Assembly (NCBI GenBank): GCA_026005175.1
Contig: BPKO01000001.1
Coordinates: 558,001 to 622,000, forward strand
DNA from: Candidatus Tectimicrobiota bacterium
GTDB lineage: Bacteria > Tectomicrobia > Entotheonellia > Entotheonellales > Entotheonellaceae
Length of the DNA stretch: 64,000 bases
Reading direction: 5' to 3'
Below the pieces are notes generated by a model that was not told where the DNA came from, did not search any database, and saw nothing but the letters and a program-made list of their open reading frames with translations. Below, one piece after another: positions 1,959 to 7,113 of this stretch. Both the position numbers and the translations under genes were made by a program. The stretch's first letter is position 1. Each line of letters starts with the position of its first letter.

Positions 1959-2040
1959 GCGCGCAACGGGCGGCAGGGAAGGCCTGCCGCATGCTGCCTG
2001 CCCTGCGCTTGTACTTCAAGCCTGGCCAGAAAAACACTAA

Positions 2041-2077
2041 GAAGCCGCTTGTTCAGTGGAGCAAGCGGCTTCTTTTG
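2041..2077 (+). terminator. Rho-independent terminator after the molybdoenzyme genes
   Basis: A perfect 11-base stem, GAAGCCGCTTG at 2041-2051 pairing with CAAGCGGCTTC at 2062-2072, with a 10-base loop, followed by TTTT. It lies 83 bases after the iron-sulfur subunit stop. The A-rich stretch just upstream means it could also stop transcription from the minus strand, where the decayed integrase ends at 2132. Confidence 0.85.
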
Positions 2078-2131
2078 TATCGAGGCCGGATACGCAGCCG
2101 TTTCAAGCCAGAACGGCAAACCCCAGGTCGT

Positions 2132-2661
2132 CTAGGGGGCTGGGGACTCCCTGGCCTCTTGCTGCAGGACGTGGGTGTAGACCATCGTTGGGGCAAGATT
2201 CTTGTGCCCGAGCAGGTGCTGAATGGTACGGATGTCGGTGCCACGTTGCAGCAGGACCATGATCCTGAGCCAGGTCCTGCTGATGCAACGTCTTGACCCT
2301 GGCCAGGTGGCTTTGGGGCAAGGGCGTGAGGGTAGTGGGGAAGGTCGTGACGCGGTCCTTGTCGCCCTTGCCCGAACGGACGGTCAGTTGCTTCATCGGA
2401 AAATCGATGTCCTTGACTCTGAGCCGGACGGCTTCCATGAGCGGCAGCGACGTTGCCGTGCACCGCCAGGGGGGTCAGGAAGGCTGCGATCTTCGGTTCG
2501 GCGGGGAAGAGGTCCTGGCGCGCATGGCGTGGAAGCGGACGAAGCGGACGATCCACGCTGTATTAGGAGCGCTCGGTGTGGAGGGAGTAGTGGAGGAGAC
2601 GGAGGACGTGGCGCACTTCGTCGAGGAGTTTGGGTTGTTGCCTTCTTGGCGAGGCAGGCAT
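2132..2661 (-). pseudogene. Decayed integron-type tyrosine recombinase (IntI-like)
   Basis: Pieces of one integrase can be read in order on the minus strand in three frames. They are an ATG at 2661 after a GGAGGGA ribosome site, LLDEVRHVLRLLHYSLHTER followed by an in-frame TAA, AWIVRFVRFHAMR, DLFPAEPKIAAFL, MEAVRLRVKDIDF, and [20 protein letters not shown] with YTHV carrying the tyrosine nucleophile. IntI-family enzymes are about 320-340 residues; here only about 530 bases remain. Two internal deletions of roughly 60 and 80 residues remove the first catalytic Arg region and the HxxR box. The pieces resemble integron integrases more than XerC/XerD. The opposite orientation to the cassettes, its own promoter at 2734-2762 and the attC site downstream support an integron origin. 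The enzyme must be inactive. Confidence 0.85.
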
Positions 2662-2733
2662 ACAATCCCTCCGTGGAGGTGCCCTGAGCGTGCCGATAAC
2701 GGGCATGGGGCAAAACGGCCCGAAAACCCCGTT

Positions 2734-2762
2734 ATTATCACATTATCAGGGCAAAATGTCAA
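2734..2762 (-). promoter_or_regulatory. Sigma-70-type promoter for the integrase relic
   Basis: On the minus strand TTGACA (2762-2757), a 17-base spacer and GATAAT (2739-2734) make a near-consensus promoter. It points at the integrase start codon at 2661. A second ATTATC copy at 2742-2747 offers an alternative, badly spaced -10. The promoter is intact although the gene is broken. Confidence 0.65.
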
Positions 2763-2773
2763 GTTAATCAATG

Positions 2774-2780
2774 GTTAGAC
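2774..2780 (+). other. Integron core recombination site (attI/cassette junction)
   Basis: GTTAGAC fits the integron core consensus GTTRRRY. It is the exact reverse complement of GTCTAAC at 3390-3396, the R'' box of the downstream attC. This is the relation expected between the first bases of a cassette and its own attC, since cassettes join between G and TTRRRY. It defines the first cassette as 2775-3442. The site lies between the integrase promoter and the first cassette gene, where attI is normally found. Confidence 0.7.
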
Positions 2781-2863
2781 GATTGGTTCAAAATGCATTC
2801 CTGAGTGAGTGTGCCTTGGATGGCGCGGCAATTCCCGGATGAGCCAGTGGCCTTCATCCAGGC

Positions 2864-3157
2864 ATGTGTCCGAGGGGACGACTCTATTGGACCTACCATG
2901 TCAACATGCGCCTTCAAGGCCGGGACATTCCGCGCCAAGCCATTATCGATGCAGTTGACACCTACCAGCTTGTGGAAGCCTACCCAGCTGACAAATACCT
3001 CCCCAGCTACCTGATCCTGGCACGCTATGGCCATGACGCGTTTCATCTCTTGTTTGCGGTCGATCTTGAGGGGGATAATGTCAGAGTGGTCACGGCGTAT
3101 CGTCCAAGCTTGGACGAGTGGGAAGCCGATTTGAAAACTCGGAGGACACCGCGATGA
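2864..3157 (+). CDS. DUF4258-type small protein, possible toxin of a cassette-borne pair
   Basis: A 97-residue protein whose core (WTYHVNMRL, IIDAVDTY, YLILARYGHDAFH, VRVVTAYRP) matches the DUF4258 family, small RelE/MqsR-like proteins usually paired with a YgiT-type zinc-ribbon protein. The pair here overlaps by ATGA at 3154-3157, indicating translational coupling. The ATG at 2864 has only a weak ribosome site, and no better in-frame start precedes YWTYHVN. It is the first gene of integron cassette 2775-3442, a typical setting for toxin-antitoxin genes. Toxicity is inferred from family and context only. Confidence 0.75.
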   Translation: MCPRGRLYWTYHVNMRLQGRDIPRQAIIDAVDTYQLVEAYPADKYLPSYLILARYGHDAFHLLFAVDLEGDNVRVVTAYRPSLDEWEADLKTRRTPR

Positions 3158-3375
3158 AGTGTGCGGTCTGTGGAGCCCAGCTGCAGCCGGCGCGGAGCGA
3201 TCTGCCCTTCAAGGTGAGCGAGCAGACTATCGTTATCCTCAAGCAGCTTCCGGTATGGCAGTGTGGGAATTGTGCGCAATATCTGATCGAGGATCACGTG
3301 CTCCGCCGGGTGGACGAGATTCTCGCGGGCGTCGACCGTGCAGCGGAGCTGGAAATCATTCGCTTTGCGGCCTAG
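3154..3375 (+). CDS. YgiT-type zinc-finger protein, probable antitoxin
   Basis: A 73-residue protein with two CxxC pairs, CAVC at residues 3-6 and CGNC near residue 37, forming the N-terminal zinc ribbon of YgiT/MqsA-like antitoxins. A LPVWQCGNCAQYLIED core and a short helical tail follow. It lacks the helix-turn-helix domain of full MqsA, as is common for the short YgiT partners of DUF4258 proteins. The ATG at 3154 follows a GGAGG site and overlaps the upstream stop by four bases. The attC site begins 15 bases after the stop, so the pair fills the cassette. Confidence 0.82.
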   Translation: MKCAVCGAQLQPARSDLPFKVSEQTIVILKQLPVWQCGNCAQYLIEDHVLRRVDEILAGVDRAAELEIIRFAA

Positions 3376-3389
3376 CGCTGCGTCCCATC

Positions 3390-3448
3390 GTCTAACGACG
3401 GCCTGAAGCCGACGCGGTACCCCGCGCGGCTCAGGCCCGGCGTTCGGC
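3390..3448 (+). other. Integron attC site (59-base element)
   Basis: A 59-base site bounded by R'' GTCTAAC (3390-3396) and R' GTTCGGC (3442-3448). Between them GCCTGAAGCCGACGCGG (3401-3417) and CCCGCGCGGCTCAGGC (3421-3436) pair with single unpaired A bases on one arm, the extrahelical bases typical of folded attC sites. The layout closely resembles attC sites of well-known resistance cassettes such as aadA. It ends the cassette holding the DUF4258/YgiT pair. Confidence 0.85.
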
Positions 3449-3487
3449 TGCGAGCCGTTCTCGCAAGGCTGAACCGAGGAGGGCGTC

Positions 3488-3789
3488 ATGAAAGGTTTGG
3501 TTCTTGCCGCTACGGTGGTCGCGATCACGGCCGCTATCGTCGCCCAGGCGGACGCCGGATGCCGGTGGGAGTGGCTCTGCGACCAGTATGGTAGATGCGC
3601 CCAGAAGCCGATATGCGACTCGACTCTCGACATCGTCCCGCCGCGCCCCCTTCCGTCGCTCCGATCGTTCCGCCGAGTATCCAGCCCATTCCGACCCTGA
3701 CGATCCCGCCAATCGGCACACGGCAGTGCCGGTAGGTTCGTCGATGCGATACGTGGGGCAATTGCGTTTGGGATACAGTGTGCTACTGA
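3488..3789 (+). pseudogene. Decayed secreted Cys-rich cassette protein
   Basis: ATG at 3488 follows a strong GAGGAGGG site 40 bases after the attC site, so this heads the second cassette. The first 23 residues are a signal peptide ending ADA. The mature part opens with a CxxxxxCxxxGxCxxxxxC motif. The frame is lost in the C-run near 3645 and closes at 3700. Reading the next frame gives a Pro-rich linker, an in-frame TAG, and a second copy of the Cys motif ending WDTVCY before TGA at 3789. Proteins with two such Cys motifs joined by a Pro-rich linker occur as short secreted proteins of unknown function. One frameshift plus one stop suggest real decay. Confidence 0.6.
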
Positions 3790-3854
3790 TCACTCGGTTG
3801 GCCGGGATTCAGCGCGCTGAGAAAAGCGGCACGCGATGTACGCGCAAGGGCGTG

Positions 3855-3874
3855 GGGTTAGGTCTTGAATCGTG
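3855..3874 (+). repeat. 20-base direct repeat, copy 1
   Basis: GGGTTAGGTCTTGAATCGTG matches the copy at 4099-4118 at 16 of 20 positions, in the same direction and 244 bases apart. Motifs of the form GGGTCAGGTCTTGAAT often flank REP-associated tyrosine transposase genes, from memory; no transposase lies between the copies here. Confidence 0.5.
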
Positions 3875-4098
3875 AAACAACAGCTTGGCCTAATAACCGC
3901 GTGCAGCCGCTTCCAGCGCCTACCGGCGCGCTTGAAACGCGCTTGAGTAACGTGTTTGCAGCCCCTCTCCGCAACGGCGTCGGCCAGCTTACTACTTCAC
4001 GGCGGGTCTGCTTCAGGCAGGCCACCCACTCTGCGACCGCATCCAGCACACAGACGCAGCACCGTACCAGGACGGCTCCCTGCAAGCACGGGGTCATA

Positions 4099-4118
4099 GG
4101 GTCAAATCTTGAATTGTG
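4099..4118 (+). repeat. 20-base direct repeat, copy 2
   Basis: GGGTCAAATCTTGAATTGTG is the second copy of the motif at 3855-3874. The sequence between the copies has no coding potential, so this may be the scar of a lost mobile element or a chance remnant. Confidence 0.5.
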
Positions 4119-4618
4119 CATCGCTGACTTCGCCTGCAAGCGGTACTGGGGCCGATTTTCTTCACGTTTTTCACGTCTCTCGGGGCATCGGGGGTGCCGG
4201 AGTCAGTTCCCTGTAACGGTTGCTCCTACTGCTGTCGGCAGGTTGGCTTCCCCTGTCTTGCCTCTGTCGGGTGCTTGCCTCTGTCTAGGTTCGCGTGCCC
4301 GCTACCCGTAGGAGGTATTATGCCGTTTGGCCAGTAAGGATGCGCCCTTGGCCGTACGGCCTTGCTCTCCCCGTTTGGATGGGTCACCGGCGGACTTAGT
4401 AGCCCTATCTGGCTCTCCCTCCCCGGCGATCTGTCCCGGTCAAAATGGCCTTGACACCGGGCACCAGCTGGTGAATACTGCAAGCGCTTTTCGGTAAGAA
4501 GCGATAGGAGCTGGGAGGCGATCGACGGTGTAGCCGCTTGCAGAACCGGGGCAGTTCTTCACTCGCGAACAAAGTAAACGCTGTCGCGGGCAGGCGCAGC
4601 CGCCCTCAGGGAGAGGCG

Positions 4619-6005: not shown

Positions 6006-7113
6006 TTGTTGCCCCTTTGCGCAATGGTTCTCTTGGGGCTGCTGTCTTCTGCCGGCGCGCATACCAGCGCCACCGGTTTTTTCCCGCATGCCATCGTCCT
6101 GGCCGATTTCAACCACGATGGCCATGTCGACATGGCGGTGCCGGCGTCGGCAGAGCGCCAGGTGACCGTCTTGCTCGGCGATGGCAAAGGGGGTATCTTG
6201 TCCAGCCGGACTTATCCGGTGGGACAGGGCCCGACGTGGATCGACGTGGCAGACTTCAACGGCGACGGCCGGCTCGACTTCGTGGTTACCAACACCGGGG
6301 AAGGAAGCCTGACGCTGTACTTCGGCAACGGCGAGGGGGACTTCGCCGCCCGCCAGGACATCGCGGGCATTCACGGCCCGGTGTCGGTGGTGGCGGCCGA
6401 TTTCAGCGGCGATGGCTTGCCGGACCTGGCGGTGGCGCAGGCCAAGCGCTCGGCGGTGGCCTTGCTGCTGAACCAGGGGGCAGGGAAGTTCACCTTGGTC
6501 CAGACGTACAACGTCGGGCGGGGGGCCCCACATCCTCTCCAAAGCCGACCTCAACGGGGATGGCTGCCCCGACGTGATTTCGGGTAACCTCGGCCCGCAT
6601 ACTCTCTCGGTTCTCCTCTGCCAGGGCAACGGCACACTGCGCGAGCCGCTGACCGTGCCGGTGGGGCGCTTTCCCCACTACCGCGCCTTTGGGGACTGGA
6701 ACGGCGACGGGCATCTCGACCTCGCGGTGGTGGCCGCCGGGGACGATGCCGTTGACGTGTTGCTGGGTGACGGCACAGGCCAGCTGCGTAAAGTCACGAG
6801 TTATCCGGTGGGTACCAACCCGCACGGCCTGGAGGCAGGTGACGTCAACGGCGACGGCCACCTGGACCTGATCGTGAGCAACCGCAGCTCGCGCGACCTG
6901 CACGTGTTGTTTGGCGACGGCACCGGCGCGTTTGTGGCTGCGCCCCCCATCCCGGTCGGCCAGGACATCATTGCCCTGGCTGCGGCGGATCTCGATGAAG
7001 ACTCGCGTCTCGACCTGGTGCTGGTGTCTGCCACCTCGCACGTGGTGATCCTGCTGCGAGGAGATGGTCAAGGCCGGTTTGCGCCTTTTGCCCTCCAAAA
7101 AGCGGGAGAGTAA
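6006..7113 (+). CDS. Secreted seven-repeat FG-GAP/VCBS beta-propeller protein (one frameshift)
   Basis: After a short signal peptide the protein carries seven calcium-binding loops of FG-GAP/VCBS type: DFNHDGHVD, DFNGDGRLD, DFSGDGLPD, DLNGDGCPD, DWNGDGHLD, DVNGDGHLD and a weaker DLDEDSRLD. They are spaced about 50 residues apart, as for a seven-bladed propeller. The frame breaks at the six-G run 6520-6525; removing one G joins repeats 3 and 4 without loss, so the break is probably a sequence error. The likely start is one of the TTG codons at 6006/6009 behind GGAGAGG, with the ATG at 6024 as alternative. It lies in the NrfD/cytochrome operon. A binding or scaffold role outside the inner membrane is inferred. 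Confidence 0.75.

Follow-up and report, generated by a model that had tools for sequence, protein, structure and literature searches.

Very probable remains of a sedentary chromosomal integron within an operon of a Candidatus Tectimicrobiota bacterium

Near the start of the DNA examined here, a broken recombinase gene lies beside a few small open reading frames. Was this gene the integrase of an integron, and can the neighboring cassettes still be moved? The window is the whole stretch of 64,000 nucleotides that was analyzed (G000:C1:558001-622000); it belongs to a 3.99-Mb MAG of 14 contigs that is 77.5% complete. It is highly probable that the window carries a decayed sedentary chromosomal integron which sits inside an operon, holds captured cassettes, and has a dead integrase.

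Identity and decay of the integrase

The relic of the intI gene lies on the minus strand at positions 2116-2661. The integron integrase model TIGR02249 (model length 315) is matched by three fragments, which cover its positions 1-62 (interrupted by one stop), 129-193, and 272-307, and it was the best-scoring model for each of them in the profile search. The central fragment, which is the longest, scores 55.8 bits against 21.6 bits for the best Xer-type model. The C-terminal fragment of 40 residues is less decisive alone, with 46.3 bits for IntI and 41.0 bits for XerC. An orthologous full-length intI gene, itself broken, is found on contig C172 of G001, a relative in the same family. In the integrase tree, the rebuilt window relic is the sister of the C172 relic with support of 100/97, and a group supported at 100/99 unites these two with a Desulfobacteraceae IntI and the relic of G002; most other parts of the tree have low support, and the outgroup includes two very long branches. 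From the profile scores and the tree, the fragments are assigned to an integron integrase (IntI) and to neither a Xer nor a phage recombinase.

The lesions were located by alignment of the relic with the C172 ortholog and with IntI1. At the junction 2440/2441 (minus strand), 209 bp have been lost, including catalytic R146. At the junction 2256/2257 (minus strand), 233 bp have been lost, including H277, R280, and the IntI-specific patch by which IntI differs from Xer; this patch is present in the orthologous G001 relic. A frameshift and a TAA codon appear near position 2560 in the alignment with C172. K171, the LLGH histidine, and the tyrosine are kept in the alignment with IntI1. These six residues have catalytic roles in IntI1, and the set R, K, H, R, H, Y is incomplete in the window relic. 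Since R146, H277, and R280 disappeared with the 209 and 233 bp, the integrase is dead whatever small sequencing errors are present, and the aligned sequences identify the element as a non-functional integron relic, not a working integron. The original prediction of an integron-type integrase relic on the minus strand, broken by frameshifts and a stop, is borne out by the IntI-versus-Xer profile scores, the tree, and the alignments. Its two deletions were also recovered, but their sum against the G001 ortholog is nearer 147 residues than the 140 proposed.

Recombination sites and cassettes

The attI core GTTAGAC is located on the plus strand at 2774-2780, with the crossover at G^TT. Identity to G001 contig C172 is 31/40 on the integrase side of the core and 10/40, which is the chance level, on the cassette side. 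The break in homology at the predicted crossover fits an attI with different first cassettes, and by this alignment the core, predicted as a GTTRRRY site, is judged to be real. A putative PintI-like promoter, TTGACA-N17-GATAAT, is found on the minus strand at 2734-2762. It agrees with the consensus at 11/12 positions, as the prediction of a near-consensus integrase promoter held, and four promoter-like sites were seen in the surrounding region against 0.7 expected. In the G001 ortholog the -10 region is conserved but the TTGACA of the -35 region is not, so it is no more than a plausible candidate for the intI promoter. No Pc promoter was identified in the window integron. Between the operon and intI, an inverted repeat with a T-run at 2038-2078 probably serves as an intrinsic terminator.

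A first heuristic scan for attC sites was dropped because RYYYAAC...GTTRRRY is self-complementary and many chance matches were obtained. It was replaced with a fixed 7-9-6-A architecture and a covariance model. The architecture consists of 7 (R''), 9, and 6 (L'') positions, one unpaired base, and an inner stem, followed by 6, 9, and 7 positions; it was derived from attCs in other genomes, both class 1 and chromosomal. The covariance model was trained on 13 external attCs, none from this genome. The 59-bp site at 3390-3448 on the plus strand contains 19 of the 21 pairs with the unpaired A correctly placed and is the best site in the 64 kb; 0.77 Mb of sequence resampled from the window by a Markov model gave at most 18/21. 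The covariance model scores this site at 38.7 bits (E 8.8e-8), and the next match in the window is at 10.9 bits. In the genome-wide search it ranked at the top among the 150 candidates scored. The two attCs on contig C7 were missed there, probably owing to this limit of 150; both were recovered by direct search of their loci, and one of them outscores the window site at 42.8 bits. BLAST of the site against plasmids gave nothing beyond weak, partial similarity, which is usual for attCs, and neither an Rfam gathering scan nor a tRNA scan of the window gave any match.

The window attC shares the 7-9-6-A-stem architecture and the extrahelical A with the aadA-type class 1 attC (loci L135, L138, and L140), and both contain a GTCTAAC R'' box and a AAGCCGACGC core. 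The R' box is GTTAGRY in the aadA-type site and GTTCGGC in the window attC, a departure from GTTRRRY. The same GTTCGGC box is found in attCs of G001, which suggests a variant of this lineage. The relic, the promoter-like site, the core, and the 59-base attC are all present in the predicted order and polarity, and the attC was matched at its predicted place by a model built from external sites.

Cassette 1 extends from the attI crossover to the R' crossover of its attC (2775-3442, plus strand). It contains a DUF4258 ORF at 2864-3157 (PF14076, 49.9 bits) and a YgiT/MqsA-type zinc-finger ORF, antitoxin-like, at 3154-3375 (TIGR03831, 26.7 bits, above the cut-off), both on the plus strand. The stop of the first overlaps the start of the second by ATGA. 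DUF4258 is among the RelE/ParE-superfamily toxin families and occurs in fusions with MqsA (PMC11980606); no literature naming DUF4258 together with YgiT was found. With adjacent, overlapping ORFs of a toxin family and an antitoxin family, this DUF4258/MqsA-like pair resembles a type II toxin-antitoxin module. Upstream of about 2880 the N-terminus of DUF4258 runs on in a different frame, and this part also matches a G001 homologue; the apparent frameshift is either a real lesion or a sequencing error. At another place in the genome (L171, G000:C5:178342-178461), a short second DUF4258 fragment is 83% identical to the cassette copy, and the 21-bp motif described below is present 5 bp from the end of this fragment.

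A second cassette ORF, recognized from the reading frames only, is located at 3488-3735 on the plus strand. It would encode a small secreted-type protein and has an apparent frameshift near 3635. Behind it, at 3854-3955 on the plus strand, genome repeats and alignments delimit a decayed second attC preceded by the 21-bp dispersed motif GGGGTTAGGTCTTGAATCGTG. The attC remnant proper lies near 3880-3955, and only the attC of cassette 1 is intact.

The 21-bp motif GGGGTCAGGTCTTGAATCGTG is present in about 40 copies in the genome of the window and in none in G001-G003. Six copies precede an attC-like start at a fixed spacing, one in the window (3854-3893) and five at other places in the genome (L013:7740, L013:12437, L056:1501, which is the same as L089:2701, L087:16340, and L095:2756). 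One variant copy adjoins a gene for a Y1_Tnp transposase of the REP-associated type (L093, C4:307134). The attCs may have joined a dispersed repeat, with the cassette ends copied by a single-strand transposase instead of IntI, all detected integron integrases of this genome being dead; we consider this reading improbable. At loci L087 and L088 (G000:C1:307000-326000 and C5:35000-45000), copies of the motif are frequently paired in inverted orientation, at a distance of a few hundred bp, and enclose two recurring internal sequences, which suggests small non-autonomous elements.

Insertion site, relatives, and alternative readings

In the window, where the domains of the operon genes were assigned by Pfam, about 2.65-2.66 kb separates two respiratory genes, that for the 4Fe-4S ferredoxin subunit and nrfD, and the alignment with the relatives resumes at 4610. 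In G002 and G003 the genes for the molybdopterin subunit, the ferredoxin subunit, and NrfD follow one another without interruption, and the gap between the ferredoxin-subunit gene and nrfD measures about 70 bp. The block that is absent from these relatives spans 1959-4618 and comprises the integron and its decayed flanks; its ends are approximate because the flanking intergenic sequence has diverged. The feature originally delimited at 2132-3448 ends exactly with the first attC, but the missing block reaches to about 4618. The integron is most simply read as an insertion in the lineage of the window; that the ancestor of G002 and G003 lost it has a lower probability. Farther along the window, at 6520-6540, a frameshift within a run of G/C seemingly interrupts an FG-GAP-like repeat gene, either a homopolymer error or a pseudogene.

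Related elements were found elsewhere in the genome and in the family. Contig C7 (L013:4300-12460) carries two tandem copies of a second decayed intI gene with an adjacent attI, and the two are 95-97% identical over their longest stretches. Their homology stops at AG^TT, with identities of 37/41 and 8/40 on the two sides. The attCs are at L013 6578-6665 and 11123-11210, and the cassettes are on the same strand as intI; this inverted layout is atypical and has been described for Treponema (PMC3607928). About 32 attC matches were counted in G001, which also has two intact IntI genes; with very similar attCs on many of its contigs (L164 and L165, contigs C269 and C197), G001 probably carries a large chromosomal integron. 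G002 has a truncated intI gene beside an attC. Dead intI copies of one clade are present in three genomes, and one relative retains an intact IntI. Taken with the C7 copies, the integrons of G001 and G002 indicate that integrons recur in this family and that the integrase has been lost repeatedly.

The near-equal IntI and XerC scores of the C-terminal fragment might suggest a Xer-like or phage tyrosine recombinase next to a hairpin that is a chance palindrome. This origin has almost no probability and is refuted by four results combined: the clear IntI score of the central fragment, the position of the relic among IntI in the tree, the covariance match of the attC, and the attI boundary, the last two of which stand independently of the identity of the fragments. 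The integrase might also be intact in living cells, with the lesions being assembly or sequencing artefacts of the MAG. Single-base frameshifts beside G or C runs occur outside the integron (near 6525) and in both cassettes, and part of the small lesions could therefore stem from sequencing. The clean losses of 209 bp and of 233 bp are not homopolymer errors, however, and breakage is repeated in other copies: the G001 ortholog has in-frame stops and a change of LLGH to LLGP, the G002 copy is truncated, and both C7 copies bear a different deletion. An intact integrase is accordingly very improbable.

The element might also be dead only in cis. The attC of cassette 1 is structurally intact, and the relative G001 has intact IntI genes and numerous attC matches; the cassette could still be mobile through an IntI encoded elsewhere in the genome or arriving from outside. 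Against this, no full-length intact IntI was detected by profile search in the genome of the window, although at 77.5% completeness one may be encoded elsewhere, and cassette 2 and its attC are decayed. Continued mobility of the cassette is unlikely, and the original description of the cassettes as frozen in place is a fair one for the genome as assembled, with an IntI acting in trans possible.

The preferred reading is that of a decayed sedentary integron, for which the following history is proposed. An integron of the usual layout, with intI divergent from the cassettes and attI between them, would have settled in a molybdopterin-oxidoreductase operon, between nrfD and the gene for the ferredoxin subunit. 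IntI-mediated recombination between attI and attC would then have taken in at least two cassettes, those of the DUF4258/MqsA-like pair and of the small secreted-type protein. The intI gene decayed afterwards through two large deletions, a frameshift, and a stop, so that the platform can no longer insert or excise cassettes by itself. Some leftover expression of the cassettes may persist.

Comparison with known systems

Inactive integrases are well known. When 103 bacteria were surveyed, almost a third of their intI genes proved to be pseudogenes (Nemergut et al. 2008, PMC2426708), and arrays left as remnants after loss of the integrase have been reported in Treponema (PMC3607928) and Xanthomonas (PMC8618304). 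For this lineage, the original remark that such integrons are under-described has some justification, but it does not apply to intI pseudogenes in general (PMC2426708, PMC3607928, PMC8618304). The window element is a well-documented new example of integrase decay, of a kind already described, and it leaves existing knowledge about integrons unchanged. Its value is in the unusually clean evidence for the presence of an integron and the death of its integrase in one uncultivated bacterial family, provided by block-free sites in two relatives, by an attI boundary that the sequence by itself reveals, and by the dead intI copies of one clade in three genomes beside the intact IntI of one relative. 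The element is well suited to studying how integrons arrive at new sites in chromosomes and what causes the recurrent loss of their integrases.

Like the pseudo-integrons of the earlier survey (PMC2426708), the window element combines deletions, a stop, and a frameshift in intI with an attI and an attC cassette that are still adjacent. It differs from them in having two large deletions besides the small lesions, in an integron-free site that can be demonstrated in relatives, and in its uncultivated host lineage. A static array after integrase loss is shared with the remnants of Treponema phagedenis (PMC3607928) and the inactivated integrons of Xanthomonas (PMC8618304); in T. phagedenis the attCs are kept and intI is gone, whereas the intI relic of the window is still readable. 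The window element also resembles CALIN, the attC clusters without an integrase defined in IntegronFinder 2.0 (PMC9024848), in having an attC and a cassette and no working integrase. Only one attC is intact in the window, and, in contrast to CALIN, the intI relic and attI remain, so that the element looks like an earlier stage of decay.
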